This document shows positions 238 to 61,290 of a stretch of 64,000 nt of DNA, piece after piece. Each line of letters begins with the position of its first letter. The stretch's first letter is position 1. The notes under the pieces are model-generated. The model saw only the letters and a list, made by a program, of their open reading frames with translations, made no database searches and was not told the origin of the DNA. Source of the stretch: Eutreptiella sp. 'Long Island Sound 2002' (taxonomy: Eukaryota; Euglenozoa; Euglenophyceae; Eutreptiales; Eutreptiaceae). A program made the translations under genes and the position numbers. The stretch spans positions 181,118,436 through 181,182,435 of the forward strand of contig OZ038379.1 in the NCBI GenBank assembly GCA_964036045.1, in the 5' to 3' direction.

Positions 238-575
238 TGGCCCCTGCCGCCTCGGGGATCCCCTCCGCTTCAGAGCGGGGGGCAAAATAAGAAGTGGCCC
301 AATCGTGGGCAAGGTGGCTACGTAACCCCTGCGGCCTCGGGGATCCCCTCCGCTTCAAAGCGGGGGGCAGAATCAGAAGTGGCCCACTTGTGGGCAAGGT
401 GGCTACATAAACCCTGCCGCCTCGGGGATCCCCTCCGCCTCAGAGCGGGGGGCAGAATCACAAGTGGTGCCCAAAAGAGGGCGGAATTGCTACGTAACTC
501 CTGCTTTCTCGGCGATCCCCAAAAAGGGGGGATAGACATGGCCCACGTTGGGCCGGGGCAAAAAGGCCTCTAGGG
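238..575. repeat. Remnant of 85-bp satellite, about 4 units
   Basis: Degenerate units with the same order of motifs as the large array at 21.4-29.7 kb: GTGGCCCAC..GTGGGC, GGTGGCTAC, a CCCCTGCCGCCTCGGGGATC block, then a CCGC..GCGGGGGGCAGAATC block. The last unit has diverged most (GCCCAAAAGAGGGC, then a shortened CCCCAAAAAGGGG block). In the two complete MULE copies this satellite lies just inside one transposon end, so this block may mark an eroded element. No matching end sequence was found here. Confidence 0.8.
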
Positions 576-14389: not shown

Positions 14390-14914
14390 CTATACCGCCC
14401 TGTGGAGTGCAGGGGCATTCTTTAGCCCGGCAAGGGCTTCAGCACCACTGTCACCCACATTGTTGTGTGCAAGATTCAGGGTCAAAGGGTGTAGTGCAGG
14501 GGCATTCTTTAGCTCCACAAGGGCTTGCGTAACACTGTCACCCACATTGCTGTTCCAAACATCCAAGGTCAGAGTGTGCAATGTAGCGGCATTCTACAGC
14601 CCTGCAAGGGCTTCCGCACCACTGTCACTCACATTGTTGTGTGCAAGATTCAAGGTCAGAGTGCAGTGCAGCGGCATTCTTCAGCCGTGCAGAGGCTTCC
14701 GCACCACTAGCTCCCAAATCATTGCCAATGACATTCAAGGACAGAGTGTGTAGTGCAGGGGCATTCTTTAGCCCTGCAAGGGCTTCAGCACCACTATCAC
14801 CGACATTGTTGTGTGCAAGATTCCAATTCAGGGTGTGCAGTGCAGCCGCATTCTTCAGCTCCGCAAGGGCTTGCGCAATACCGTCACGTACATTGCTGCT
14901 CCAAACATTCAAGG
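14390..14914 (-). pseudogene. Broken tail of the LRR repeat array
   Basis: About six more 29-aa LRR units continue the array at 14915-16363 but in shifted frames. Units at about 14690-14930 and 14390-14580 keep the LNL.HNNVGDSGAEALAGLKNA pattern (for example LNVWSSNVRDG, LDVWNSNVGDS). Shifts lie near 14.94-15.00 kb, where a short CACTCTCACTGCACACTCT stutter is seen, and near 14.63-14.67 kb. Either the gene once had about 20 repeats and now stops early, or the tail is no longer translated. Confidence 0.65.
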
Positions 14915-16363
14915 TCAGAGTGTGCAGTGAGAGTGTGCAGTGCAACGGCATTCTATAGTCCCGCAACGGCTTCTGCACCACAGCCCTGCAACGGCTTTTG
15001 CAACACTGTCACCCACATTGTTGTGCCCAAGATTCAAGGTCAGAGTATGCAGTGCAGGGGCATTCTTCAGCCCTGCAAGGGCTTGCGCACCACTGTCACC
15101 CACATCGTTGGACTCAAGGTTCAAATTCAAGGTGTGCAGTGCAGGGGCATTCTTTAGCCCCGCAAGGGCTTCAGCACCACTGTCACCCACATTGTTGTGT
15201 GAAAGATTTAAGGTCAGAGTGTGCAGTGCAATGGCATTCTTCAGCCCCGCAAGGGCTTGCACACCACTGTCACCCACGTTGTTGCCCTCAAGGTCCAAAT
15301 TCAGAGTGTGCAGTGCAGCGGCATTCTTCAGCCCTGCAAGGGCTTCTGCACCACTGTCACCCACGTTGTTGTCCTTAAGATTCAAAGTCAGAGTATGCAG
15401 TGCCGCGGCATTCTTGAGCTCCGCAAGGGCTTGCCCACCATTGTCACCCACATTGCTGGTCCAAAGATCCAAGGTCAGAGTGTGCAGTGCAGTGGCATTT
15501 TTCAGCCCTGGGAGGGCTTCCGCACCACTGTCACCCACATTGTTGTGTGAAAGATTTAAGGTCAGAGTGTGCAATGCAATGGCATTCTTTAGCCCTGCAA
15601 GGGCTTGCGCACCACTGTCACCCACAATGTTGCCCTCAAGATTCAAAGTCAGAGTGTGCATTCCAGCGGCATTCTTCAGCTCCGCAAGGGCTTGTGCACC
15701 ACTGTCATCCACATTGTTGTGCCAAAGATTCAAGGTTAGAGTGTGCAGTGCAGCGGCATTCTTCAGCCCTGAAAGGGCTTCCGCACCACTGTCACCCACA
15801 TTGTTGTATGCAAGATTCAAGGTCAGAGTGTGCAGTGCAGGGGCATTCTTCAGCCCCGCAAGGGCTTGCGCACCACTGTCACCCACATTGTTGCCCTCAA
15901 GATCCAAAGTCAAAGTGTGCAGTGCAGTGGCATTCTTCAGCCCTGCAAGGGCTTCCGCACCACTGTCACCCACATTGTTGTGTGCAAGATTCAAGGTAAG
16001 AGTGTGCAGTGCAGCGGCATTCTTCAGACTTGCAAGGGCTTCCGCACCACTGTCACCCACACCATTGGCAACGAGATTCAGGGTGAGAGTGTGCAATACA
16101 CCAGCATCCTTCAGCCCCGCAAGAGCTTCCGCACCACTGTTTCCCACCTTGTTGTCTCTGAAAGTTAGAGCTGCAGTGCGTACTGCTTGCACGCGTAAAC
16201 CCTTCATCATCGGCATGAAATCCCTCTCCTTTGGTATACAGTAATGTAAATGTCGCTGTTGCAACAAATTCCACAGTCGAGTACTCACATGGCTGCATAG
16301 TGCCGTCCCTGAGAAGTCACAGATGCAACACAACACATCGTTAGGCAACTCAAGTAAGGTCAT
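14915..16363 (-). CDS. F-box-like / leucine-rich repeat protein
   Basis: From the ATG at 16361-16363 the protein begins MTLLELPNDVLCC and continues through HVSTRLWNLL, an F-box-like segment (about residues 4-35) expected to bind Skp1 in an SCF ubiquitin ligase. About 14 LRR units of exactly 29 residues (87 bp) follow, of the RNI/NLRC3-like type, consensus ALHTLTLNLxHNNVGDSGAE then ALAGLKNA. They would form the substrate-binding solenoid. Upstream of the ATG the DNA reads TTTTGTGTTTCCAG/GC, a strong splice acceptor, so a 5' exon may exist and the in-frame ATG at 16402 lies in the presumed intron. The frame loses the repeat pattern after the last unit and stops at 14915, see 14390-14914. Substrate unknown. 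Confidence 0.65.
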   Translation of the reverse strand: MTLLELPNDVLCCICDFSGTALCSHVSTRLWNLLQQRHLHYCIPKERDFMPMMKGLRVQAVRTAALTFRDNKVGNSGAEALAGLKDAGVLHTLTLNLVANGVGDSGAEALASLKNAAALHTLTLNLAHNNVGDSGAEALAGLKNATALHTLTLDLEGNNVGDSGAQALAGLKNAPALHTLTLNLAYNNVGDSGAEALSGLKNAAALHTLTLNLWHNNVDDSGAQALAELKNAAGMHTLTLNLEGNIVGDSGAQALAGLKNAIALHTLTLNLSHNNVGDSGAEALPGLKNATALHTLTLDLWTSNVGDNGGQALAELKNAAALHTLTLNLKDNNVGDSGAEALAGLKNAAALHTLNLDLEGNNVGDSGVQALAGLKNAIALHTLTLNLSHNNVGDSGAEALAGLKNAPALHTLNLNLESNDVGDSGAQALAGLKNAPALHTLTLNLGHNNVGDSVAKAVAGLWCRSRCGTIECRCTAHSHCTL

Positions 16364-17664: not shown

Positions 17665-17673
17665 TGTTGTCGC
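17665..17673. repeat. Target-site duplication, left (MULE 1)
   Basis: TGTTGTCGC, repeated exactly at 29934-29942. Nine bp is the usual target duplication of Mutator-like elements. Confidence 0.85.
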
Positions 17674-17850
17674 GGGCATTTGGTGAAACCTAGTATGCAC
17701 GTAGCAAAACCTAGTAAAATGTAGCAAAACCTAGTAAAATGTAGCAAAACCTAGTAAAATTTTTCTTAAAAAATCCTTTTAAATTTTTTTTTACTCGGGA
17801 AAAAAAGCAATTTTTTTTTCAAATTTTCCTTACTAGGTTACTAGGCAATG
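17674..17850. repeat. MULE 1 left terminal block
   Basis: Terminal sequence, then three direct copies of GTAGCAAAACCTAGTAAAAT, then A/T runs ending in the inverted form TTACTAGGTTACTAGG. These subterminal words are likely transposase-binding sites. Confidence 0.8.
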
Positions 17851-17887
17851 ACAAATTTGGACTTACATCTGAACAAAAAACAGAAAG

Positions 17888-17998
17888 TTTATGGTGGGGG
17901 TCAACGGTAGATGGTATTTGTGTTTAAGGGCATGGTGCCCCCTGGGTCTATTCCAGGCCACTTGTGTAAGTGGCGCCCCGCCCCGGCCAAACCGTGTA
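17888..17998 (+). repeat. tRNA-like A/B-box module in MULE 1
   Basis: A GGTAGATGGTA segment (A-box-like) and a GGTCTATTCCAGG segment (degenerate B box) lie about 40 bp apart. Related modules occur at 58722-58815 in MULE 2 and 35994-36055. No full cloverleaf. Confidence 0.35.
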
Positions 17999-18040
17999 TT
18001 GCAAGGTCAGCAGAAACAAAATGAGGCCTCAAGAAAAGAA

Positions 18041-18086
18041 GGAGCTTTTATATCATATATATATATACATATATTATACATATATG
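18041..18086. repeat. AT dinucleotide microsatellite
   Basis: AT/TA-rich run between the tRNA-like module and the gene. MULE 2 has a (AT)n run in the same place (58811-58828). Confidence 0.8.
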
Positions 18087-18105
18087 AGGTGCACACACGT
18101 GTGCT

Positions 18106-18690
18106 TTATCTGAAGTTGCAAAACACGCGCTTGTAGATGAGGTCCGCCTTCTTATCGTTGTATGTGGGTTGTGCAGAGGGAGGGTTGTGCTCGCACATGT
18201 TGCGAAGCACGCCCGTGGTCTTTGTATCCAACTCTTTGATTAGATTTTTGTCATACTCCAATTTCCCAGAGGCATCTTTGGGGTAATGCTCTGGAACAAA
18301 AAATTCTTGACCATGGATCACCACCTTTGGACGGACCTCATCTACAAAAGGCGGCTTGTCAACAACAAGCCGGTCACCCAAGGCGAATGCCAACACAATG
18401 CATGCCAGTGTGGCAGTAAATTGCACTCTCCTATTGCGCAATGCCACACATATCTCCGAGGGACAGAAACCGGTAGCATGCAAGGCACATTGATAAACTC
18501 CACATTCAGGGCACGTGATGTGGGCTGTATCGTCTCAAAAAAAAAAAAGCACGACGAACAACTGGGTGAACAATAGGGCGTAGCATACATCCGTGCCAAG
18601 GCCCAACCGTGTGTGGTCCCAATAGGGGGGGCATGCGGAGAATCGCGATAGTGCAAAGCTGCCTGTGCAATCTCACACAACAACACAATT
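18106..18690 (-). pseudogene. C-terminal Cys-rich domain of MULE 1 protein
   Basis: Two overlapping frames (18342-18686 and 18106-18483) together match the C-terminal frame of MULE 2 (58977-59597). Shared landmarks are C-EIAQA-LHYRDS / REMAQATLYYSGS, a SEICVALR / SEICVGLR motif, and the final KADLIYKRVFCNFR / KADLIFKRVFCNYL. In MULE 2 a Cys/His cluster (C-x2-C, C-x2-C, C-x3-H-x5-C) precedes SEIC. Here it is damaged at a T-rich run near 18540. It probably binds zinc; no function is known. Confidence 0.6.
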
Positions 18691-19275
18691 TGTCTTGTGG
18701 AAGTTGGATGCTACCGTTGACAACACGCCTAGACAAAAGGCAATGTAGCATGAGAAGGCAGGCAGGATGGCAGCTCACACCGTCGTCCTGATGTAGGAAG
18801 GTAGAGTAGAGGGGGGCTATAGGAAAAGCTACACTGCCAAATTCACCCAAAAACGTGTCCCACCTCTTCTGCGGCCTTGCCTCAATGCCTTCTCGTTCGG
18901 CAATGAGGTTCACTATTGCCAACTCCTCGGTGTTTGCACCCACTATGTACGGCTTGTTACATAGCGGATCGAACACGAGGCACAAGAAAGTGCGTGTTGG
19001 GGAAACCAACAACAAGCGCAGCACCCAATGTTGATTGCGCAAATTATATATCTGCGCCGCAAGCAAGGGAGGCGCATGGATCGATCATATCAATGGACGC
19101 TGCTTTCAAAGTACGCAGCGCCCATGACTCAGCCAACACCAACCTACGACCCAACGGCAAAGATGACCCATTCCACACTGAGTCACACACAAACCACGCC
19201 AAACCCATAACATCCCAGTCCGCACTCAAAGCTGTCAGAGCAAGCCACCAGTAATACACAACAATCTCGGCAGTA
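18691..19275 (-). pseudogene. Ulp1-like (C48) cysteine protease domain of MULE 1
   Basis: The frame from 19066 shows the landmarks of a SUMO-protease fold. His is in NQHWVL (residue 13 of the frame), Asp in VFDPL (residue 33), and Gln-x5-Cys in HQDDGVSC (Gln 93, Cys 99), matching the catalytic H-D-Q-C order and spacing of Ulp1. The preceding part (VVYYWWLALTAL) lies in another frame (19044-19592), so a frameshift splits the domain near 19.05 kb. Ulp1-like domains are known passengers of some plant MULEs. This region is absent from MULE 2. The domain call is mine from motifs. Confidence 0.6.
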
Positions 19276-20410
19276 TATGTGACGTAGGGGGTAGTTTTAG
19301 CATGGGATTGCGTGGGATGCAAGATCTTCCCAACCTCAACCTCCTTCTCCCACTTTTGCAAGACCCAGCGCGACTCGTCTCTGTCTTTAAATTTGCGAGC
19401 AACGCACTCCTCACCTTCTAAACACCACATGCACCCCTCGCAATAGACGCACCATAAGAAAACTTTCCAATGGCACTGCCCACAAGTGAACGGAGGGCGG
19501 TACAGGTGCATGGAATGCCACCGCTTGCTTCCACGGTCCAATTCCCGCTTCACAACGGGTGCAAGGGCCAGGCTCACCGTCACAGCTACCATCCTATGAG
19601 GAATTAGAATCTGAATCAGAATTAGAGTCTGACAATTCTTGGCTCCTGTTGGCGGCTTTCTTTTTTTTGGGGGCCTCCTTGTGACTTTAGAGCATGCACA
19701 TGAGGCGCTTCAACGCGGGTTACAACGGTGCGTCTCACAGGACCAAACTTAAAAGGATGGGAACCAAAAAACTTCCAGGAGTAGCGCAAAGGCACCTTGA
19801 AGCCGGGTTCCTTCACAAGAAGCCACGACAAACTGCCCTCACAAACACCTAATGTGCAATACGTGGCACATGTGCAAGCCTTAGCTGCGACACGGTGAAC
19901 CCTCAAGAAGTTGACAAATTGGGGCCATGTGACACGACCTCCGTCAGATATGGTGGCCAAGGTTTTCTTCCACTGGGCCACTTGCATGCCATCAATGGGG
20001 GGATACTCACGGACAGGCTTGCTGTTTGCACCCCGCTTTCGTGATGCAACACCTTGATGGAAGAAGATTGCATCACCATCATCGAAAAAGACTGCATCAT
20101 GAAGTATGCATTGGGCCTCTTGCCACATCCAGGGAGCACGCTGCATAGCTCTACCCCCCAGTTATTTGCGGCCTTTGGTCCATTGTTCACCCATTCGAGG
20201 CACAACCTCTTGCAAAAACTCACGCAGCCCGCGCAACTTGTGCCGGCCAAGAAGTTTCATACAAAAAGCTCTTGACTCTGCCGGTGTGCTACACGGGACA
20301 CCCGGGTCAGTGTGGCCCACATGCCGCCCTTGGCGTTTGTCGATATATTCTTTTTGGGCATGCTCCAAATAATGGGGAGTTGCCGCATAATAGTCACTTA
20401 ATGCGACCAA
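19276..20410 (-). pseudogene. Central region of MULE 1 transposase protein
   Basis: Pieces in three frames (20162-20410, 19622-20146, 19300-19592) are collinear with one intact frame in MULE 2. Shared landmarks are YYAATPHYLEHA, PGVPCSTP, HKLRGLREFL, APWMWQEAQ, DDGDAIFFHQGV and SRKRGAN. Then comes a Cys cluster CGQC-x7-WC-x-YC-x-GC-x2-C, followed by RKFKDRDESRWVLQKWEKE. The Cys cluster looks like a zinc module. Frameshifts at about 20.41, 20.15 and 19.60 kb show the gene no longer makes one protein. Confidence 0.65.
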
Positions 20411-20877
20411 CCGGCTTTGAAAACGGGTGTGCTCCAACTGAGATGCACGTCCCGGATGGCCGCGTGCACTTCTTCCCGGGTGGAACAGTCCGGGATAACC
20501 TTCTTCAAAGCCTTCAACATTGCTCTTTGTGCGTGCCAGTAACACAACAGCCACACAATTGCCACCCACACTCGCTTTGCTGCATTATACATGGCGGGGT
20601 CACCATCGCTCATGAACTTTCCCATGCTCCAAGTGAAGCCTGCATAGCGGGTGGAAATGGCACGGCTCGTGCACTCTAGAATGAACTGCAAAGCATCAGT
20701 GTTCTCCTTTTCTGCAAGACTAAAGGAAAAAAGTGCCGTGGTGTGGTTCATGGTGAGGCCCCCCAGAAGCGGAATGCGGAGGCGTTGCCATATCACCTTC
20801 CCAGTACAATCCAACCAACACCATGGCACCTGGCCTGATCGCTGGCATTCTTCAAAGATTAGTCTCGTGGTTTCCAA
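20398..20877 (-). pseudogene. MULE-type DDE transposase core (MULE 1)
   Basis: A 159-residue frame with the hallmarks of a Mutator-like catalytic core: Asp in WLDCTGK (residue 23), an AEKENTDALQFIL helix, Asp in FMSDGDPAM (residue 91), and the C-x2-H of LLCYWHAQRAM (residues 112-115) that follows the second Asp in MULE transposases. The third acidic residue should lie downstream, past the frameshift at about 20.41 kb. This core is missing from MULE 2. The frame upstream of 20877 is unclear, and an intron or truncation is possible. Confidence 0.65.
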
Positions 20878-21365
20878 GAAACGATTCGTACAAAAAACAC
20901 AGTTGAAAAAAATAGAAACGAATCAAAAGGTGCAAATACCTCGGAGGAGTCATGACAGAAACACAGCTGGGCACCCCATGTGCATAAGCAAAATGTAACA
21001 TGCAACATACAATGCAGGAAAGAAAGCCGAGCCGGAGGCGTGAAAAAACCTCCAGAAAGTCCAATGAGTGTAGCAGCCCATAATAGGGGGGCATACACTT
21101 TGATTGTCGCCCCCCCCGCATGCATTGCGCCTTAGCCTGTGTCTGTGACTCTTTACCCATGAATGATGACTAAGCTCCTTCATCAGATCAAGGGTAGAGT
21201 GTCACAAACAACCAAGCATTAAAAGTATACCGCATGCGTATTCTAAGGGTGTGATCCGTGCCCACGGGACTCATTTTCGCCGATTTCTTCGTGCCTGCCT
21301 CAGTGCCTTCCGCAGAGGTTTGCTTGGACGACACTGTTGCAAAGATGAAGGGCAAAAGGAAAAAG
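20878..21365. other. 5' part of MULE 1 gene region, not resolved
   Basis: Between the DDE frame and the satellite. Minus-strand frames have no recognisable domain. It may contain the promoter, first exon or an intron of the transposase gene. Confidence 0.35.
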
Positions 21366-22759
21366 GGGGGGCCCAAAAGAGGGCAGACTTGCTATGTCAC
21401 CCTTGCATTCTCGGGGGTCCCCAACGCCTAGCGCGGGGAGCAAAAGAAAAAAATAGGATTGTGAGTACCCCTAGAGCGGGGGGCAAAATCAAAGGTGGCC
21501 CACAAGTGGGCAAGTTGGCTACATAACCCCTGCCGCCTAGGGGTCCCCACCACTTCAGAGCAGGGGGCAGGGTCAGAGGTGGCCCACAAGTGGGCAAGGT
21601 GGCTACATAACCCCTGCCGCTCGGGGGGTCCCCACCGCTTCCTGACCGGTTCGGAGTGGGGGGCAGAATCCGAAGTGGCCCACAAGTGGGCAAGGTGGCT
21701 ACATAACCCTTGCTGCCTAGGGGGTCCCCACCGCTTTAGAGCGGAGGGCAGAGTCAAAGGTGGCCCACAAGTGGGCAAGGTGGCTACATAACCCCTGCCG
21801 CCTGGGGGGTCCCCACCGCTTCACAGCGGGGGAAAGAGTCCAAGGTGGCCCACAACCGGGCAAGGTGGCCACATAACCCATGCCGCCTGGGGGGTCCCCA
21901 CCGCTTCAGAGCGGGGGGCAGAATCAAAGGTGGTCCACAAGTGGGCAAGGTGGCTACATAACCCCTGCCGCCTGGGGGGGTCCCCACCACCTCACAGTGG
22001 GGGGCAGAATTAGAAGTGGCCCACAAGTGGGCAAGGTGGCTACATAACCCCTGCCGCCTTGGGGGTCCCCACCGCTTTAGAGCGGGGGGCAGAGTCAAAG
22101 GTGGCCCAAAAGTAGGCAAGCTGGCTACATAAACCGTGCCGCCTAGGGGGTCCCCACCGCTTCAGAGCGGGGGGCAGAATCACAAGTGGTCCACAAGTGG
22201 GCAAGGTGGCTACATAACCCCTGCCGCCTGGGGGGTCCCCACCGCCTCAGACCGGGGGGCAGGATCACAAGTGGCCCACAAGTGGGCAAGGTGGCTACAT
22301 TACCCCTGCCACCTAGGGGGTGCCCGGCGCCTGAGAGCGGGGGGCAGAATCAGAAGTGGCCCACAAGTGGGCAAGGTGGCTACATAACCCCTGCCGCCTG
22401 GGGGGTCCCCACCGCTTCACAGCGGGTGGCAGAGTTAGAGGTGGCCCACAAGTGGGCCACGTGGCTACATAACCCTTGCCGACTTGGGGGTCCCCACCGC
22501 TTGTGGCCCACAAGTGGGCAAGGTGGCTACATAACACCTGCCGCCTTGGGGGTCCCCACCGCTTCAGAGCGGGGGGGCAGAGTCAAAGGTGGCCCACAAG
22601 TGGGCAAGGTGGCTACATAACCCCTGCCGCCTAGGGGGTCCCCACCGCCTCAGAGCGGGGGGCAGAATCAGAAGTGGCCCACAAGTGGGCAAGGTGGCTA
22701 CATAACCCCTGCCGCCTGGGGGGTCCCCACCGCTTCAGAGCGGGGGGCAGAATCAGAAG

Positions 22760-23110
22760 GGGCCCACAAGTGGGCAAGGTGGCTACGTAACCCTTGGCGT
22801 CTTGAGGGTCCGCACCGCTTTAGAGCAGCGGGCAGAATCAGAAGTGCCGGACAAGGGGGCAAGGTGGCTACATAACCCCTGCCGCCTGGGGGGTCCCCAC
22901 CGCTTCAGAGCGGGGGGCAGAATCAGAAGTGGCCCACAAGTGGGCAAGGTGGCTACGTAACCCCTGGCGTCTTAAGGGTCCGCACCGCTTTAGAGCAGCG
23001 GGCAGAATCAGAAGTGCCGGACAAGGGGGCAAGGTGGCTACATAACCCCTGCCGCTTGGGGGGTCCCCACCGCTTCAGAGCAGGGGGCAGAATCACAAGT
23101 GGCGGACAAG
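22760..23110. repeat. Dimeric (170-bp) higher-order repeat in satellite
   Basis: A pair of units with the rare variants CCGCACCGCTTTAGAGCAGC and GTGCCGGACAAGGGGGC is repeated 170-180 bp later, so two-unit blocks were copied. Confidence 0.6.
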
Positions 23111-26100
23111 GGGGCAAGCTGGCCACATAACCCCTGCCGCCTGGAGGGTCCCCACCGCTTTAGAGAGGGGGACAGAGTCAAAGGTGGCCAACAAGTGGGC
23201 AAGCTGGCTACATAAACCTTGCCGCCTAGGGGGTCCCCACCGCTGCAAAGCGGGGGGCAGAATCACAAGTGGTCCACAAGTGGGCAAGACGGCTACATAA
23301 CCCCTACCGCCTGGGGGGTCCCCACCGCTTTAGAGCGGGGGGCAGAATCAAAAGTGGCCCACAAGTGGGCAAGGTGGCTACATAACCCCTGCCGCCTTGA
23401 GGGCCCCCACCGCTTCAGAGCAGGGGGCAGAATCAGAAGTGGCCCACAAGTGGGCAAGGTGGCTACATAACCCCTGCCGCCTAGGGGGTCCCCAACGCTT
23501 CAGAGCGGTGGGCAGAGTCAAAGGTGGCCCACAAGTGGGCAAGGTGGCTACATAACCCCTGCCGCCTAGGGAGTCCCCACCGCTTCAGAGCAGTGGGCAG
23601 AGTCAAAGGTGGCCCACAAGTGGGCAAGGTGGCTACATAACCCCTGCCGCATGGGGGGTCCCCACCGCTTCAGAGCGGGGGGAAGAGTCGGAAGTGGCCC
23701 ACAAGTGGGCAAGGTGGCTACATAACCCCTGCCGCCTTGAGGGTCCCCACCGCTTCAGACCGGGGGGCAGAATTAGAGGTGGCCCACAAGTGGGCAAGGT
23801 GGCTACACAACCCTTGCCGCCTTGGGGGTCCCCATCGCTTCAGAGCGGGGGGCAGAGTCAAAGGTGGCCCACAAGGGGGGTGGTCCACAAGTGGGCAAGG
23901 TGGATACGTAACCGCTGCGGCATTGGTGGTCCCCACCGCTTTAGAGTGCGCAGCAGAATCAGAAGTGGCCCACAAGTGGGCAAGGTGGCTACATAACCCC
24001 TGCCGCCTGGGGGGTCCCCAACGCCTCAGAGTGGGGGGCAGAATCCGAAGTGGCCCACAAGTGGGCAAGGTGGCTACATAACCCCTACCGCCTGGGGGGT
24101 CCCCACAGCTGCAGAGTGGGGGAAGAATCAGAAGTGGCCCACAAGTGGGCAAGGTGACTACATAACCCCTGCCGCCTGGGGGGTCCCCACCGCTTCAGAG
24201 CAGGGGGCAGAATCAGAAGTGGCCCACAAGTGGGCAAGGTGACTACATAACCCCTGCCGCCTGGGGGGTCCCCACCGCTTTAGAGCGGGGGGCAGAGTCA
24301 AAGGTGGCCCACAGGTGGGCAAGGTGGCTACATAACCCCTGCCGCCTAGGGGATCCCCACCGCCTTAGAGCGGGGGGTAGAGTCAAAGGTGGCCCACAGG
24401 TGGGCAAGGTGGCTACATAACACCTGCTGCCTAGGGGGTCCCCACCGCTTCAGACCGGGGGGCAGAATCAGAAGTGGCCAACAAGTGGGCAAGCTGGCTA
24501 CATAACCCCTGCCGCCTTGGGGGTACCCCACCGCTTTAGAGCGGGGGGGCAGAATCAGAAGTGGCCCACAAGTGGGCAAGGTGGCTACATAACCCCTGCC
24601 GCCTTGGGGGTCCCCACCGCTTTAGAGCGGGGGACAGAGTCAAAGGTGGTCCACAAGTGGGCAAGCTGGCTACCTAACCCTTGCCGCCTTGGGGGTCCCC
24701 ACCGCTTCAGGGCGGGGGGCAGAGTCAAAGGTGGCCCACAAGTGGGCAAGGTGGCTACATAACCCCTGCTGCCTAGGGGGTCCACACCGCCTCACACCGG
24801 GGGGCAGGATCACAAGTGGCCCACAAGTGGGCAAGGTGGCTACATGACCCCTACCGCCTTGGGGGTCCCCACCGCTTTAGAGCGGGGGGCGGAATCAGAA
24901 ATGCCCCACAAGTGGGCAAGGTGGCTACATAACCCCTGCCGCCTGGGGGGTCCCCACCGCTTCAGAGCGGGGGGCAGAGTCAAAGGTGGCCCACAAGTGG
25001 GCAAGGTGGCTACATAACCCCTGCCGCCTTGGGGGTCCCCACCGCTTCAGAGCGGGGGGCAGAATCAGAAGTGGCCCACAAGTGGGCAAGGTGGCTACAT
25101 AACCCTTGCCGCCTGGGGGGTCCCCACCGCTTCAGAGCAGGGGGCAGAATCAGAAGTGGCCCACAAGTGGGCAAGGTGGCTACATAACCCCTGCCGCCCT
25201 GGGGGTCCACACCGCTTCACAGCGGGGGGCAGAATGAGAAGTGGCCCACAAGTGGGCAAGGTGGCTACATAACCCCTGCCGCCTGGGGGGTGCCCACCGC
25301 TTCAGAGCAGTGGGCAGAGTCAAAGGTGGCCCACAAGTGGGCAAGGTGGCTACATAACCCTTGCCGCCTTAGGGGTCCCCACCGCTTCAGAGCGGGGGGC
25401 AGAATGAGAAGTGGCCCACAAGTGGGCAAGGTGGCTACATAACCCCTGCCGCCTTGGGGGTCCCCACCGCTTCAGAGCGGGGGGCAGAATCAGAAGTGGC
25501 CCACAAGTGGGCAAGGTGGCTACATAACCCCTGCCGCCTTGGGGGTACCCGGCGCTTCAGAGCGGGGGGCAGAATCAGAAGTGGCCCACAAGTGGGCAAG
25601 GTGGCTACATAACCCCTGCCGCCTGGAGAGTCCCCACCGCTTTAGAGCGGGGGGCAGAGTCAGAAGTGGCCCAGAAGTGGGCAAGGTGGCTACATAACCC
25701 CTGCCGCCTTCAGGGTCCCCACCGCTTCAGACCGGGGGGGAGATTCAAAGGTGCCCCACAAGTGGGCAAGGTGGCTACATGACCCTTGCCGCCTTGGGGG
25801 TCCCCACCGCTGCAGAGTGGGGGGCAGAATCAGAAGTGGCCCACAAGTGGGCAAGGTGGCTACATAACCCCTGCCGCGTGGGGGGTCCCCACCGCCTCAG
25901 AGTGGGGGGTAGAATCCGAAGTGGCCAACAAGTGGGCAAGGTGGCTACATAACCCTTGCCGCCTGGGGGGTCCCCACTGCTTTGGAGCGGGGGGCAGAGT
26001 CAAAGGTGGTCCACAAGTGGGCAAGGTGGCTACATAACCCCTGCCGCTTGGGGGGCCCCCACCGCATTAGAGCGGGGGGCAGAGTCAAAGGTGGTCCACA

Positions 26101-29089
26101 AGTGTGCAAGGTGGCTACGTAACACTTGCCGCCTTGGGGGTCCCCACCGCTTTAGAGCGGGGGGCAGAGTCAAGGGTGGCCCACAGGTGGGCAAGGTGAC
26201 TACATAACCCCTGCCGCCTGGGGGGTCCCCACCGCTTCAGAGCAGGGGGTAGAATCAGAAGTGGCCCACAAGTGGGCAAGGTGACTACATAACCCTTGCC
26301 GCCGGGGGGGTCCCCACCGCCTCAAACAAGGGGGCAGAATCAGAAGTGGCCCACAGGTGGGCAAGGTGGCTACATAACCCGTGCTGCCTAGGGGATCCCC
26401 AGCCCTTTAGAGCGGGGGGCAGAATCAGAAGTGGCCCACAAGTGGGCAAGGTGGCTACATAACCCTTGCCACCTGGGGGGTCCCCACCGCTTCAGACCGG
26501 GGGGCCGAATCAGAAGTGGCCCACAGCGGGGGGCAGAGTCAAAGGTGGCCCACAAGTGGGCAAGGTGGCTACACAACCCCTGCCGCCTTGGGGGTCCCCA
26601 CCGCTTTAGAGCGGGGGGCAGAATCGGAAGTGGCCCACAAGTGGGCAAGGTGGCTACATAACCCCTGCCGCCTTGAGGGTCCCCACCGCTTCAGAGCAGT
26701 GGGCAGAGTCAAAGGTGGCCCGCAAGTGGGCAATGTGGCTACATAACCCCTACCGCATTGGGGGTCCCCACCGCTTTAGAGCGGGGGGCGAAGTCAGAGG
26801 TGGCCCACAAGTGGGCAAGGTGGCTACATAACCCTTGCCGCCTGGGGGGTCCCCAACGCTTCAGAGCGGGGGGCAGAATCAGAAGTGGCCCACAAAGGGG
26901 CAAGGTGGCTACATAACCCCTGCCGCCTTGGGGGTTTCCCACCGCTTTAGAGCGGGGGGCAGAGTCAGAAGTGGCCCACAAGTGGGCAAGGTGGCTACAT
27001 AACCCCTGCCGCCTTGAGGGTCCCCACCGCTTCAGTCCGGGGGTAAGAATCAGAGGTGGCCCAGAAGTGGGCAAGGTGGCTACATAACCCTTGCCGCCTT
27101 GGGGGTCCCCACCGCTTCAGAGCGGGGGGCAGAGTCAGAGGTGGTCCACGAGTGGGCAAGGTGGCTACATAACCCCTGCCGCATTGGTGGTCCCCACCGC
27201 TGCAGAGTGAGGGGTAGAATCAGAAGTGGCCCTCAAGTGGGCAAGGGGACTACATAACCCCTGCCGCCTGGGGGGTCCCCACCGCCTCAGAGTGGGGGGC
27301 AGAATCCGAAGTGGCCAACAAGTGGGCAAGGTGGCTACATAACCCCTGCCGCCTTGAGAGCCCCCACCGCTTCAAAGCGCGGGGGAGATTGAGAAGTGGC
27401 CCACAAGTTGGCAAGGTGGCTACATAACCCCTGCCGCCTGGGGGGTCCCCAGCGATTTAGAGCGGGGGGGAGAGTCAAAGGTGGCCCACAAGTGGGCAAG
27501 GTGGCTACATTACCCCTGCCGCCTGGGGGGTCCCCACCGCTTCAAAGCAGGGGGCAGCGTCGGAAGTGGCCCACAAGTGGGCGAGGTGGCTACATAACCC
27601 CTGCCGCCTTGGGGGTCCCCACCGCTTCACAGCGGGGGGCAGAATCAAAGGTGGCCCACAATTGGGCAAGGTGGCTACATAACCCGTGCCGCATTGGGGG
27701 TCCCCACCGCTTTAGAGCGCGGGGTAGATTCATAGGTGGCCCACAAGTGGGCAAGGTGGCTACATAACCCCTGCCGCCTGGGGGGTTCCCACCGCCTCAG
27801 AGCGGGGGGGAGATTCAGAGGTGGCCCACAAGTGGGCAAGGTGGCTACATAACCCTTGCTGCCTTGGGGGTCCCCACCGCTTCAGAGCGGGGGGCAGAGT
27901 CAAAGGTGGCCCACAAGTGGGCAAGCTGGCTACATAACCCCTGCCGCCTGGGGGGTCCCCACCGCTTCAGAATAGGGGGTAGAATCAGAAGTGGCCCACA
28001 AGTGGGCAAGGTGGCTACATAACCCTTGCCGCCTTGGGGGTCCACACCGCTTCAGAGCGGCGGGCAGAGTCAGAGGTGGCCCACAAGTGGGCAAGGTGGC
28101 TACATAACCCTTGCCGTCTCGGGGCTCCCCACCGCTTCAGAGCGGGGGGCAGAATCAGAAGTGGCCCACAAGTGGGCAAGGTGGCTAAATAACCCCTGCC
28201 GCCCTGGGGGTCCCCACCGCTTTAGAGTGGGGGGGAGATTGAGAGGTGGCCCACAAGTGGGCAAGGTGGCTACATAACCCCTGCCAACTTGGGGGTCCCC
28301 ACCGCTTCAGAGCGGGGGGGAGATTCGGAAGCGGCCCACAAGTGGGCAAGGTGGCTACATAACCCGTGCTGCCTTGGGGGTCCCCACCGCTGGAGAGCGG
28401 GGGGCAGAGTCAAAGGTGGCCCACAAGTGGGCAAGCTGGCTACATAGCCCCTGTCGCCTGGGGGGTCCCCACCGCTTCAGAGCTGGGGGTAGAATCAGAA
28501 GTGGCCGACAAGTGGGCAAGGTGGCTACATAACCCCTGCCGCCTTGGGGGTCCACACCGCTTCAGAGCGGGGGGCAGAATCAGATCTAGCCCACAAGTGG
28601 GCAAGGTGGCTACATAACCGCTGCCGCCTTGGGGCTCCCCACTGCTTTAGAGCGGGGGGCAGAATCGGAAGTGGCCCACAAGTGGGCAAGGTGGCTACAT
28701 AACCCCTGTCGCCTGGGGGGTCCCCACCGCTTCAGAGCAGGGGGTAGAATCAGAAGTGGCCCACAAGTGGGCAAGGTGGCTACATAACCCCTGCCGCCTT
28801 GGGGGTCCACACCGCTTTAGAGCGGGGGGCAGAATCAGAAGTGGCCCACAAAGGGGCAAGGTGGCTACATAACCTTTGCCGCCCTGGGGGTCCCCACCGC
28901 TGCAGAGCGGGGGGCTGAATCAGAGGTGGCCCACAAGTGGGCAAGGTGGCTACATAACCCTTGCCGTCTCGGGGGTCCCCACCGCTTCAGACCGGGGGGC
29001 ACAATCAGAGGTGGCCCACAGGTGGGCAAGGTGGCTACATAACCCTTGCCGCCTTGGGGGTCCCCACCGCTTTAGAGCGGGGGGCAGAG

Positions 29090-29712
29090 TCAAAGGTGGC
29101 CCACAAGCGGGCAAGGTGGCTGCATAACCCCTGCCGCTTGGGGGGTCCCCACCGCTTCAAAGCGGGGCGAAGAATCAGAGGTGGCCCACAAGTGGGCAAG
29201 GTGGCTACATAACCCTTGCCGCCTGGGGGGTCCCCACCGCTTCAGAGCAGGGGGCAGAATCAAAGGTGGCCCACAAGTGGGCAAGGTGGCTACATAACCC
29301 TTGCCGCCTGGGGGGTCCCGAGCGCTTCAGAGCGGGGGGCAGAGTCAGAAGTGGCCCACAAGTGGGCAAGGTGGCTACACAACCCCTGCCGCCTAGGGGG
29401 TCCCCAGCGCTTCAGAGCGTGGGGCGGAATCAGAGGTGGCCCACAAGTCGGCAAGGTGGCTACATAACCCTTGCCGCCTTGAGGGTCCCCACCGCTTCAG
29501 AGCGGGGGGCAGAGTCAGAAGTGGCCCACAAGTGGGCAAGGTGGCTGCATAACCCCTGCCGCCTGGGGGGTGCCCACCGCTTCAAAGCGGGGCGAAGAAT
29601 CAGAGGTGGCCCACAAGTGGGCAAGGTGGCTACATAACCCCTGCCGCCTGGGGGGTCGCCACCGCTTCAGAGCGGGGGGCAGAATCAGAAAGGGCCCACA
29701 AGTGGGCAAGGT
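29090..29712. repeat. Five-unit (425-bp) higher-order repeat in satellite
   Basis: Rare variants such as AAAGCGGGGCGAAGAATCAG recur 425 bp apart (29160 and 29585), exactly five units, showing a recent segmental copy at the right end of the array. Confidence 0.65.
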
Positions 29713-29719
29713 GGCTACC

Positions 29720-29933
29720 TAGTAACCTAGTAAAAACAGAAACTTTTTTTTACCAGGTTCCGAAACCTAGTAAAAAAAACCTTTTCTTTTACCAGGTTCC
29801 GAAACCTAGTAAACAAAACTTTTTTTTTTTACTAGGTTCCCAATACCTAGTAAAAACTAGTGAACCTAGTAAGCTGTTACCTCGTGAAAATTTTTTTTAA
29901 AATTTCTTTTTACTAGGTTTCACTACAGACCCC
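29720..29933. repeat. MULE 1 right terminal block
   Basis: Several AACCTAGTA words in both orientations between T- and A-runs, ending ACTAGGTTTCACTACAGACC. Inverted counterpart of 17674-17850. Confidence 0.8.
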
Positions 29934-29942
29934 TGTTGTCGC
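29934..29942. repeat. Target-site duplication, right (MULE 1)
   Basis: TGTTGTCGC, identical to 17665-17673. Confidence 0.85.
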
Positions 29943-35993: not shown

Positions 35994-36185
35994 GGATGGT
36001 AGATGGTGCTTTTGTTTAAAGGCATAGCACCCCCGAGTCAATTCCCAACCACTATTGCTATTGCAAAGGGGACAAAATCAGAAGTGGCTGGCCCCAAAAG
36101 TGGGCGCAATTGCTACATAACCCCTGCATCCTCGGGGGTCCCCAACAAAGGGGACAAAATCAGAAGTGACTACATAACCCCTCCC
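35994..36185. repeat. MULE-related remnant: tRNA-like module plus short satellite
   Basis: The module ATGGTAGATGGTGCTTTTGT ... GAGTCAATTCCC, as found near one end of MULE 1 and MULE 2, is followed directly by two shortened satellite units (GGGGACAAAATCAGAAGTG, TACATAACCCCT). In the full elements these parts are separated by the gene, so this is a deletion derivative. Terminal repeats were not found. Confidence 0.55.
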
Positions 36186-44559: not shown

Positions 44560-45075
44560 CGAATTTGCTCCGTGTTGGCACATACCGGATGTCCCCGAGA
44601 GATAGGGCTACATATCCAATACAATCTCGTGGTCCCCAGGACGAAGAGGATTCAATATGGCCGCATAACCCTTCTAGGAACCCCAAGATGGCAAGGGTAA
44701 TGTAGCCAACGATTGATACCCACCCTTGGGGACCGTGAGACAGCACATGTTATGCAGCCATATCTAATCCTCCCAGTTATGGGACCAAAGACGGTAGGGT
44801 TAATGGAGCTAGTTTGATTCCTCCCCGCACTGGGGACCCAAGAAGGTGGGGGATATGTCGCCATATTGAACCTGCCCCAACCTTGGAGACCCCAAGACAG
44901 CAGGGGTGCGGCCATATTGATTCCTCCACCATGAGGACTTTGGTGCGGCAGGGGTTATGCAGCCAAATTTATTCATCCGTGGGGCGGTACGGGTGACTTA
45001 GCCATCCTGCTTCATGCAGCCAAATTTATTCATCCGTGGGGCGGTACGGGTGACTTAGCCATCCTGCTTCATCCC
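44560..45075. repeat. Strongly divergent satellite-like block
   Basis: Degenerate units of about 70-85 bp built on CATATTGAATCCTCC, TGGGGACCCCAAGA and GGCAGGGGTTATGCAGCC. The GGGGACCCC and CCCTGC/GCAGGG parts recall the 85-bp satellite in inverted order. Relationship to it is possible but not certain. Confidence 0.5.
44957..45072. repeat. 57-bp exact tandem duplication
   Basis: GCAGCCAAATTTATTCATCC and the following 37 bases occur twice with no difference, so the duplication is recent. Confidence 0.9.
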
Positions 45076-48894: not shown

Positions 48895-58182
<9,288 letters not shown>

Positions 58183-58534: not shown

Positions 58535-58690
58535 GGGTATTTGGTAAAACTGAGTACCAGACGAGGTAAAACTGAGTAAAATGTGGTAAAACTGAGTAGA
58601 TTTGAGGTAAAACTGAGTAGAAAAAAAATTTTTAAAAAATTTTTTTAAATTTTTTTTTTTTTACTCAGTAAAAAGACAATTTTTTTTTGA
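58535..58690. repeat. MULE 2 left terminal block
   Basis: Four direct copies of GGTAAAACTGAGTA, then A/T runs and TTACTCAGTAAAAAG. The core word is ACTGAGTA here but ACCTAGTA in MULE 1. Confidence 0.85.
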
Positions 58691-58721
58691 AAAAAAATGC
58701 ACAAAAAACTGCACACTTTGA

Positions 58722-58815
58722 TGGTAGGTGGTACTTTTGTTTAAGGGCACAAGGCCCCCGAGTCGATTCCCGGCCACTTGTGTTAGTGGCGCCCCACCCG
58801 GGCCAAACCATCATA
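58722..58815 (+). repeat. tRNA-like A/B-box module in MULE 2
   Basis: TGGTAGGTGGTACTTTTGTT and GAGTCGATTCCCGGCC, spaced like Pol III boxes. Clearer than the MULE 1 copy at 17888. Confidence 0.4.
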
Positions 58816-58827
58816 TATATATATATA

Positions 58828-58957
58828 TCACACAACCGCTTCACCAAGGAGGGTTGAGTACCGTCTGCATGCATGCACAGAGGAGGGAGGGATCACACAA
58901 CCACTTCACCAAAGAGGGTTGAGTATCGTATGCATGCATGCACAGAGGAGGGAGGGA
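58828..58957. repeat. 65-bp tandem duplication
   Basis: TCACACAACCRCTTCACCAA to GGAGGGAGGGA occurs twice with few differences, just downstream of the gene's 3' end. Confidence 0.85.
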
Positions 58958-58976
58958 GGGTGGGGCCAACTACTAC

Positions 58977-59597
58977 TTACAAGTAGTTACAAAACACACG
59001 CTTGAAGATCAAGTCGGCCTTAGTAGCTCTCTTGTGAGGCTTGCCTCTCGGGGTAGGATTCAGCTTGCATCTCTCAAAGAGATCTTCTTTCTTTTCCAGA
59101 TGCAGCTGTCTGCAAAATGCTTGGTCATTTTCCAATTGACCATCAGCATTTTGGGGGTATTGAGGAGGCAACGCATACCACTTCCGACAGATCCACACAC
59201 CGGGACGGGTGTCATCAGTGGCATTGGCATTGCCAGGAGTGGCATGCGTGGCATTGGCAGCAGTAACTGCAGCAAAAGCAACAACAGCAGCAGCAGCAGC
59301 AGCAGCAGCAACGGGGGCCGCCCGGAATTGGCGCAATCCTACACAAATCTCGGACTGACACAAGACAGTGGTATGGAAGGTACAATGAAGAACCTTACAT
59401 TCCTGACACGCTATGGCGGGTGTGCCATCGCAAAAAAAGCATGTGTCAGGGGGGTCTGCAGATTTGGGCGTGGGGTACAACCGAGACACCTCCCAATGCA
59501 TTGACCGGGTCCGGGGTGTGGGGGCCAACTTGGAACCACTGTAGTACAAAGTAGCTTGTGCCATCTCACGCAATAACCACAATCTATCCTGTGGCAT
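58977..59597 (-). pseudogene. C-terminal Cys-rich domain of MULE 2 protein
   Basis: Matches the C-terminal part of MULE 1. It has the Cys/His cluster DTCFFCDG, ACQECKVLHC, FHTTVLCQSEIC, then a poly-Ala stretch coded by a GCT repeat (59280-59310), and ends KADLIFKRVFCNYL. It begins at the point where the Ulp1-like domain has been lost, and is out of frame with the central part, so no single protein is made. Confidence 0.6.
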
Positions 59598-60823
59598 GGG
59601 GTACTAGCTACATTGTCACAAGCAGCTACACCCACATTCACAGAGGGAGTTGGGTGGGTCCCTACAGCAATTTCGGACGGGATGGAATTGGGTGGAACAC
59701 GGTTCACAGAGGGAGTGGGGTGCAAAATGGTCTCGGCATCCACCTCCTTCTCCCACTTCTGTAGCACCCATTTTACCTCATCCCTATCCTTGAACCGTCT
59801 CGCTAGGCACTCCAGTCCAACCAAGCAGTGAATGCACCCGTCGCAGTAGATGCACCACAAATACACGGCCCTATTGCATTGACCACAAGTGAATGGTGGA
59901 CGGTACAGGCGCATTGAGTGCCACGAGGCGTTCCCGCGGGCCAACTCACGCTTCAGGTCTTGGCCAAGGGAGAGGGGTTCTCCATCACAGCTACTGTCAC
60001 TGGAGGAGTCGTCCTCAACAACCTTTTGAGCTCTTTTTCGGCCACCTTTCTTGGCGGGGCTTGCTTGCGACTTGAAGTCACGCACATGTGGCGGCTCAAC
60101 ACGAGAGGCAACTGTCCGCCTCACACGGCCGTACCTAAAGGGCCGGGCGCCAACGTACTTCCATGAGTATCGCAAAGGCACGGTAAAACCAGGCTCCTTA
60201 ACAAGGAGCCATAGCAAGATGCCGTCACAGATTCCAAGGGTGGAGTACGTGGCACATGTGCAAAACTCCGCTGTGACGCGGTGAATACGGAGCAGGGACA
60301 AGAACTGCGCCCAAGTGACACGGCGGCCTTCATTAATGGCGGCGAAGGTGTCCTTCCACCGGGTAACATCACCAACCTCAATGGGGGGGTAGTCACGGAT
60401 GGCCTTGCCATTGGCCCCTCGTTTTCGCGAGGACACACCCTGGTGAAAAAATAGGGCATCACCGTCATCCACAAACACTTTGTTGTTCAGCATCACCTGG
60501 GCCTCCTGCCACATCCATGGGGCGGGCTGCATGCCTCTACCACCAAGTTGTTCACGGCTTTGGGCCCACTGTGTACCTAGGCGGGGTAGCACATCTTTCA
60601 AAAACTCACGAATTCCACGCAACTTGTGCTGCGTGACAAGCTTCAGCGACTGTGCCCTTGCCTCCACCGGTGTACTACATGGAACACCCGGAGGAGACTG
60701 ACCTACAAACCACCCGGACCGCTTGTGGATGTACTGCTCCCGAGCATGGTCCAAATAGTGGGGCGTTGCCGAATAGTGGTCCTCCAATGCAGAGCGGGGG
60801 GCAGAATCAGAAGTGGCCCACAA
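59598..60823 (-). pseudogene. Central region of MULE 2 transposase protein
   Basis: A long uninterrupted frame: DHYSATPHYLDHAREQYI, PPGVPCSTP, HKLRGIREFLKD, APWMWQEAQ, DDGDALFFHQGVSSRKRG, a Ser/Asp-rich linker, the Cys cluster CGQC..WCIYCDGCIHC and RFKDRDEVKWVLQKWEKE. Its 5' end reads straight into satellite sequence at about 60785, where MULE 1 has the DDE core, so the catalytic part was deleted. The rest of the frame is undamaged, unlike MULE 1, which suggests a younger insertion or recent loss. Confidence 0.7.
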
Positions 60824-61070
60824 GTGGGCAAAGTGGCTACCTCACCCCTGCCGTATCGGGGATCCCCACCGCTTCAGAGCGGGGGGCAGAATCAGAAGTG
60901 GCCCACAAGTGGGCAAAGTGGCTACCTCACCCCTGCCGTATCGGGGATCCCCACCGCTTCAGAGCGGGGGGCAAAATCAGAAGTGGCCCACAAGTGGGCG
61001 AAATGGCTACCTCACCCCTGCCGTATCGGGGATCCCCACCGCTTCAGAGCGGGGGGCAAAATCAGAAAAA
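60785..61070. repeat. 85-bp satellite block in MULE 2 (about 3.5 units)
   Basis: Units very alike (AAGTGGCTACCTCACCCCTG, CCGTATCGGGGATCC variant) and different from most MULE 1 units. Placed, as in MULE 1, between the gene and the right terminal block. Confidence 0.95.
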
Positions 61071-61290
61071 AGGGCTTTTTTCTACTCAGTTTTTTACTGA
61101 GTAAAAAAAAATTTTTTTTTCTACTCAGTTTTTTACTGAGTAAAAAAAATTTTTTTTTTCTACTCAGTTTCGCAACTGAGTAGAAACCCCACTTACTGAG
61201 TAAAAAAAACTTTTTTTACTCAGTTTGAAACTGAGTAAAAAATTTTTTTTTTAAAAAAATTTTTTTTTTACTCAGTTTTACCACGGACCC
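61071..61290. repeat. MULE 2 right terminal block
   Basis: TACTCAGTTTTTTACTGAGTA palindromic words repeated among A and T runs, ending ACTCAGTTTTACCACGGACC. Confidence 0.85.

Follow-up and report, generated by a model that had tools for sequence, protein, structure and literature searches.

How satellite DNA originates and spreads is an old question, and a locus in the euglenophyte Eutreptiella sp. 'Long Island Sound 2002' raises it in concrete form: does a long satellite array found wholly inside a transposon belong to that transposon, and how does its unit number change? The locus lies in a window of 64,000 nucleotides (contig OZ038379.1, positions 181,118,436 to 181,182,435; "the window" is this whole stretch). 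Here we find that the block at 17674-29933 of the window, referred to as M1, is a single insertion: it has inverted ends, is flanked by a 9-bp duplication and holds 97.0 units of an 85-bp satellite in one array (Table 1). The array spans 8,249 bp in 98 segments, 95 of them full units, and makes up 67% of the element, in agreement with the original prediction of about 97 units and two-thirds satellite.

Table 1. Features of M1, of the second element and of a short satellite run in the window.
Feature	Position	Strand	Evidence or remark
Short A-like satellite run, then a module resembling (by eye) the post-array module of some family-D copies	241..521	+	no element end found beside the run
Left target-site duplication copy, TGTTGTCGC	17665..17673	+	sequence repeat search
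Left terminal inverted repeat, family A, GGGCATTTGGTGAAACC	17674..17690	+	inverted-end match
Left subterminal repeats, three exact 20-bp copies with CCTAGTAAAA	17701..17760	+	repeat analysis
Degenerate MULE transposase gene, several frames	18536..20922	-	extent from alignment to element 2
MULE domain (PF10551) in M1	20398..20922	-	Pfam
Array of A-type 85-bp satellite (97.0 unit lengths), upstream of the transposase gene	21473..29721	+	unit segmentation
Right subterminal repeats, ACCTAGTAAAA type, both orientations	29724..29915	+	repeat analysis
Right terminal inverted repeat, family A, GGTTTCACTACAGACCC	29916..29932	-	inverted counterpart of left end
Extra C at M1 right border	29933		between right end and duplication
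Right target-site duplication copy, TGTTGTCGC	29934..29942	+	sequence repeat search
Element 2 (M2), family B, CTGAGTAAAA subterminal motif, internally deleted	58535..61290	+	exact 9-bp duplication GCCCTGGAC on both sides
476-aa stop-to-stop frame in element 2; residues 1-17 come from satellite and are fused to a truncated transposase	59411..60841	-
B-type satellite of element 2, 3.3 units	60790..61067	+

The inverted ends and the exact 9-bp duplication that had been proposed as the bounds of this 12.26-kb block are both present, but the duplication lies one base off the canonical right end. Because the C at 29933 intervenes, it is either 9 bp plus an extra C or 10 bp with one mismatch. The 9-bp word occurs twice in the window, at the two borders; shuffled windows held at least two matches in 10 of 100 cases, though not at these two positions. 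Long tandem arrays are difficult to assemble, and the two ends of the block might derive from different loci. With the duplication matching on both sides, no Ns in the window and other elements built alike at other loci (see below), we regard such an artefact as highly improbable.

MULEs produce target-site duplications of 8-11 bp, typically 9 bp. The MULE domain of M1 scores above the gathering cut-off (E=6.6e-7, 30.1 bits versus 27.6), and its stretch is 60% identical to the homologous stretch of L059, an element described below. Together with the 9-bp duplications, the domain upholds an assignment made earlier from knowledge of the family. The gene is on the minus strand, and the array therefore lies on its 5' side. 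A Ulp1-like protease, recognised as a motif by eye in M1 (18506-19084) and in a frame of the family-D element L061, found no support in Pfam and was rejected.

The second element of the window had been taken to carry the same satellite at the same place in about 3.5 units, which implied about 28-fold variation between insertions. The ratio by our count is about 29-fold, and the place is the same in that the array adjoins the right end; in element 2 it is fused into the transposase reading frame through an internal deletion. A protein search with that frame returned 19 matches, all of them unnamed proteins of source 'ena'. The transposase DNA of M1 and element 2 is only 68% identical over 1,093 bp and their subterminal motifs differ, which rules out a single family; on this comparison we assign them to different families, A and B. 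The strong variation in unit number that had been stated is upheld by the wider samples below; a pair of elements from two families was by itself too little to demonstrate it.

Element ends were searched for throughout the 2.28-Gb assembly (2,205 contigs). The pattern originally proposed, GGG-N5-GGTRAAAC, proved unspecific, with 2,816+2,872 matches versus 3,095+3,190 in the control. The terminal inverted repeats of families A and B are short ends of this type on both sides, with subterminal motifs inside them in both orientations. Over the whole assembly their exact right-end pattern was found at 599+602 places (1,201; control 1+0) and the exact left-end pattern at 753+701 (1,454; control 0+0). 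Positions were taken from the first 100 of each, which fully covered contig C1, where 41 of 78 exact right ends had an inward left end within 40 kb, compared with 0 and 4 in wrong-orientation controls. The apparent lengths of these C1 end pairs ranged from 0.1 to 35 kb, some of which may reflect nested or chance pairs.

To see how regularly such ends carry the satellite, we took the first 30 of the 1,201 right-end loci by position, which all belong to C1, and inspected the 1.5 kb inside each end. Satellite in a single orientation lay within this distance at 26 of them, 21 with at least one unit (at L022, L025 and L028 with an identity of only 70-73%) and five with a fragment of 0.46-0.78 unit. 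It was absent within 1.5 kb at the remaining four (L009, L012, L023 and L029), among which L023 has a half-unit remnant 5.2 kb inward. An exact 28-mer of the satellite matched 62 times inside the 30 loci and never in their outer flanks; satellite-like sequence outside the element was seen at one locus only, L012, whose B end is nested in another element. The junction between array and end also recurs, at unit phase 25-30 in six of seven loci with an M1-type end and at phase 84 or 25 in seven of ten satellite-bearing B loci, other GG-ended variants of family A having scattered phases (14, 21, 38, 54-59).

Eleven whole elements were fetched, nine from end pairs and two (L058, L059) through the satellite sample, their right end having one mismatch; eight of them (L049-L053, L055-L057) sit at loci of the right-end sample. 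All are shorter than 10 kb, so that short elements are favoured. Exact 9-bp duplications flank seven, namely L050 (6.1 units), L051 (2.4), L052 (37.7), L056 (1.4, diverged), L057 (0.5), L058 (27.1) and L059 (39.3), as they do element 2. The duplication of L053 (1.3 units) is ambiguous in a C run, and none that is exact was found at L054 (2.3 units), L055 (53.9 units) or L049, which has no satellite. L049 was discarded as a genuine end pair: its B right end is nested in another element, and the flanks of that other element match at 8 of 9 bases. Each fetched element has one array; in L057 the half unit is 5.2 kb from the right end, and long reading frames unlike transposase are present. Given the 26 of 30 right ends, the eleven fetched elements and the seven exact duplications, the satellite belongs regularly to the element, as the original prediction held; the prediction is weakened by the four of 30 ends noted above that have no satellite within 1.5 kb. 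The left ~1 kb of four B copies diverges by 1.6-3.2%, a low value that suggests recent activity of family B.

The satellite also occurs, in the position that it has in A and B, in at least two further families, C and D. Both were found by way of arrays lacking an exact A/B right end, "right" here denoting the end that follows the array's forward reading. In both, as in A and B, a minus-strand gene remnant lies across the array from that end. The family-D copies L061 and L063 have the ends GAGGAAAGCG...CGCTTTACAC and, on our reading, an exact 9-bp duplication each; on the same reading, one of two copies of family C (L060, L062) has a 9-bp duplication. Only a C-terminal stretch of the C and D proteins resembles that of B (42-49% identical; 47-48% over 79 residues for D), and no MULE domain was seen in the fetched C and D copies. 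The family-D right end occurs at 19+19 places genome-wide (control 0), and B-type satellite was present at 15 of 15 sampled ends of the 38, the array's terminal phase being 0 or 55 in 14 copies and 27 in one; these copies are partly dependent, L086 and L087 overlapping and L091, L092 and L094 having a common flank.

The exact 28-mer is found at 51,644 places in the genome. Since it matches 0.49 times per unit (eight elements), this would correspond to about 106,000 units, or roughly 0.4% of the genome; the contigs of prokaryote genomes gave 0 matches to the satellite. The first 100 of these places, in the first 15.8 Mb of C1, form 15 arrays, of which 11 (75 places) are inside A-D elements and four have no recognised end: two with a common unclassified flank (23 places), one lone and one old. 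This region is poorer than the genome mean, at which about 358 places would be expected, and may therefore be atypical. A second sample, which favours big arrays, used the first 100 of 131 genome-wide places of a rare unit variant; a place at 15.81 Mb of C1, which probably belongs to an array of the first sample, was left out. Ten arrays were followed and the right boundary was reached in nine, the tenth being on C5. An A/B- or C-type end borders three of the nine (exact at L069, one mismatch at L067, three at L074), one adjoins family D solely at its left (L071/L077), one has the unclassified flank of the first sample (L066), and four (L065, L068, L072/L080, L075) show no A-D end in the stretch read. 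On C3, the stretch at 48,326,606-48,362,491 covers about 36 kb, or about 420 units if unbroken; an exact A/B right end follows at a distance of 0.33 kb, and no left end was found within 2.5 kb. Carriage by MULEs is thus common among sampled arrays. The original prediction is weakened by the arrays without a recognised end, which number four of 15 in the positional sample and five of nine in the sample biased to big arrays.

These end-less arrays, and a total of 51,644 exact 28-mers that exceeds what the sampled elements account for (a mean of 7.3 in the eleven fetched, which favour short ones), could also indicate an independent genomic satellite captured separately by several transposon families. 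Independent captures should vary more than is observed, however: the array is on the same side of the gene in families A-D, junctions fall at few recurring phases and all 15 sampled D ends carry it. We therefore consider separate capture improbable.

The satellite's own sequence bears on its history in these families. The A-type and B-type consensus units are distinguished by 8 of 85 sites, and D units match B at 83-84; across families, units resemble one another far more closely than genes do. Element family does not strictly determine satellite type. Most typed arrays are pure (some units of L032 and L036, and most of the old array L040, are of undecided type), yet B-type units occur in the A-ended L052 and L053, and A-type units in the B-ended L017 and the C-ended L060. 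The C-ended L062 is a clean chimera, BBBBBBBAAAAA, that is, seven B units followed by five A units. Because of these mismatches and the one chimera, arrays have probably been exchanged between families, and the typing, the likeness of units between families and two sites (76 and 20) that are polymorphic in B arrays and likewise in L061 of family D point to the passage of multi-unit blocks. The closeness of units between families could alternatively come from recurrent mutation or functional constraint.

Constraint would be expected if the array were a promoter or other regulatory array of the transposase, with selection keeping the unit alike and unit number tuning expression. The array does lie 5' of the gene in M1 and L059, A and B units agree at 77 of 85 sites when the genes are 68% alike, and the unit contains small inverted repeats, although their folding scores are weak (z -1.96 and -1.91). 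In mouse LINE-1, tandem monomers of variable number lie 5', on the promoter side of the gene, and their promoter function is known; the layout is alike, LINE-1 being a retrotransposon. The units of old arrays are nevertheless decayed at most positions, and mixed types within one family and the chimeric array require exchange in any case. A regulatory role as the explanation of the array is accordingly one that we hold to be doubtful.

Internal deletions may connect the array with repair. The least deleted B copy, L059 (8.5 kb), retains most of the transposase, and relative to an element of its kind L050, L055 and element 2 map as deletions. On the left these begin near L059 positions 1368, 1535 and 3032; on the right they break off within units, at phases 20, 6 and 62. 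Relative to M1, L051 (only 71% like it in the compared region), L052 and L053 are deletions whose breakpoints are within units at phases 79, 51 and 62. In all six copies, then, the array-side breakpoint falls inside a unit, as would be expected of copying repair between repeats. Internally deleted maize Mu elements, which are explained by interrupted gap repair, similarly keep both ends; we know of no satellite at the breakpoints of those derivatives.

Unit order was compared with permuted order in 14 arrays, each with 12 units or more (L018 and L021 being partial views of L052 and L055). Gradual growth after insertion, through slippage or local unequal crossing-over, should leave next neighbours alike, yet their similarity significantly exceeded permuted order in 0 of 14 arrays, and polymorphic sites are scrambled along the M1 and L052 arrays. 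Units at other lags were more alike than in permuted order in L036 (lag 2, p 0.002), L024 (lag 3, p 0.007) and L032 (lag 2, p 0.048), and the 5-unit pattern seen in L055 (at one site, z 3.0 for lag 10) is an ordinary trace of unequal exchange. Step-by-step local growth thus fails to explain most arrays and is, as a general account, unlikely; their unit order is explained by large amplification or thorough mixing. The terminal branch of the left 1 kb and the divergence of the satellite from its own consensus were paired for seven elements: L059 (0.004/0.012), L055 (0.0125/0.019), L052 (0.011/0.021), M1 (0.037/0.072), element 2 (0.0126/0.012), L050 (0.011/0.051) and L058 (0.147/0.084). The two values rise together only loosely and do not separate growth before insertion from growth after it.

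The reading we favour, and think reasonably likely, is that the 85-bp satellite is a built-in module of related MULE families whose unit number is rewritten mainly through copying repair between arrays. For the built-in module, it is observed that the satellite keeps its place and orientation with respect to the gene from family A to family D, that it ranges from half a unit to about a hundred, that junction phases recur and that deletion breakpoints fall within arrays. In the proposed mechanism, the module fills the stretch from the transposase gene's 5' side to the right terminal repeat, and a double-strand gap, or the array itself, would be repaired by copying another array with out-of-register pairing. 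Such repair would shift array length in large steps, give internal deletions that end in the array and let arrays pass between otherwise differing families; copies would then move by cut-and-paste with 9-bp duplications, scattering short and long arrays over the genome. Against this proposal are the four right ends without satellite within 1.5 kb, the scattered phases of the GG-ended family-A variants, the arrays without ends, the trace of ordinary unequal exchange in L055 and the chance that constraint keeps units of different families close. The earlier idea that a DNA transposon seeds and expands satellite DNA is borne out as regards carriage inside elements and not as regards the mechanism of expansion.

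Transposon-borne satellite arrays are already known from Tetris and from oyster Helentrons. For Tetris/DAIBAM of Drosophila virilis, Dias et al. 2014 (PMC4079207) suggest membership of the Mutator superfamily and describe 8-10-bp duplications and internal tandem repeats of ~220 bp, variable in number and amplified within the element up to 66 copies, features that recall the present MULEs. Tetris, according to the same paper, is apparently non-autonomous and foldback-like, with its repeats within the terminal inverted repeats. In contrast, the present MULEs still carry transposase genes, have a satellite common to several families and have a one-sided array: in M1 and M2 it lies on one side only, not within both terminal inverted repeats. 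The Cg_HINE non-autonomous Helentrons of the Pacific oyster (PMC7492417) disperse satellite-like arrays at a fixed internal place; monomers of several element groups are related (89.8% identity between two consensus units), and one group has two consecutive arrays. Fixed place and monomers related across groups are points of likeness to the MULEs; Cg_HINE differs in being of the rolling-circle class, in a longest array of 29.3 monomers in the set and in having no assignable autonomous partner. The accessible part of a review (PMC9659126) treats satellite growth within transposons and repair-based expansion in general, and that of a barley MULE paper (PMC9168764) contains neither "satellite" nor "tandem repeats". 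Among the titles and abstract openings reached by word searches, which cover few subscription papers, we found no description of this satellite or of one common to several MULE families.

More tentatively, the satellite might be a second-order mobile module that rides in MULE families, passes between them as multi-unit blocks by recombination between arrays during repair, and supplies the large arrays of the genome when blocks expand or outlive their carriers. More than a thousand element ends in one genome, mostly carrying one satellite module where sampled, with arrays from half a unit to about a hundred, chimeric as well as pure, in families that bear transposase, make the seeding, growth and exchange of satellite DNA measurable copy by copy.

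Traces of the 85-bp satellite and other repeats occur elsewhere in the window (see the table). The module GATAGACATGGCCCACGTTGGGCC, which follows the short A-like run, was found again, as judged by eye, following the array in some copies of MULE family D; no element end was identified beside that run.

Further repeats and satellite traces in the window
Positions	Feature	Copies
241-521	Short run of A-like satellite, then module GATAGACATGGCCCACGTTGGGCC	
14401-16156	Second tandem repeat (87 bp; consensus differs), two adjacent arrays	6.1 + 13.5
36068-36144	Diverged satellite fragment	1
44957-45072	57-bp direct repeat, 100% matching	2

Elsewhere in the assembly, a large B-type array on contig C12 is accompanied on its right side by a 370-aa open frame (locus L071), which by eye looks like a BTB-domain protein, and on the opposite side by family D.

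At three further loci (L048, L064 and L066) the satellite arrays continue into a common flank of up to ~190 bp, of CATTGGGCACCTTTGGCGCC type, the L066 copy being 77-79% alike to those of L048 and L064. This flank is possibly a further carrier of the satellite.
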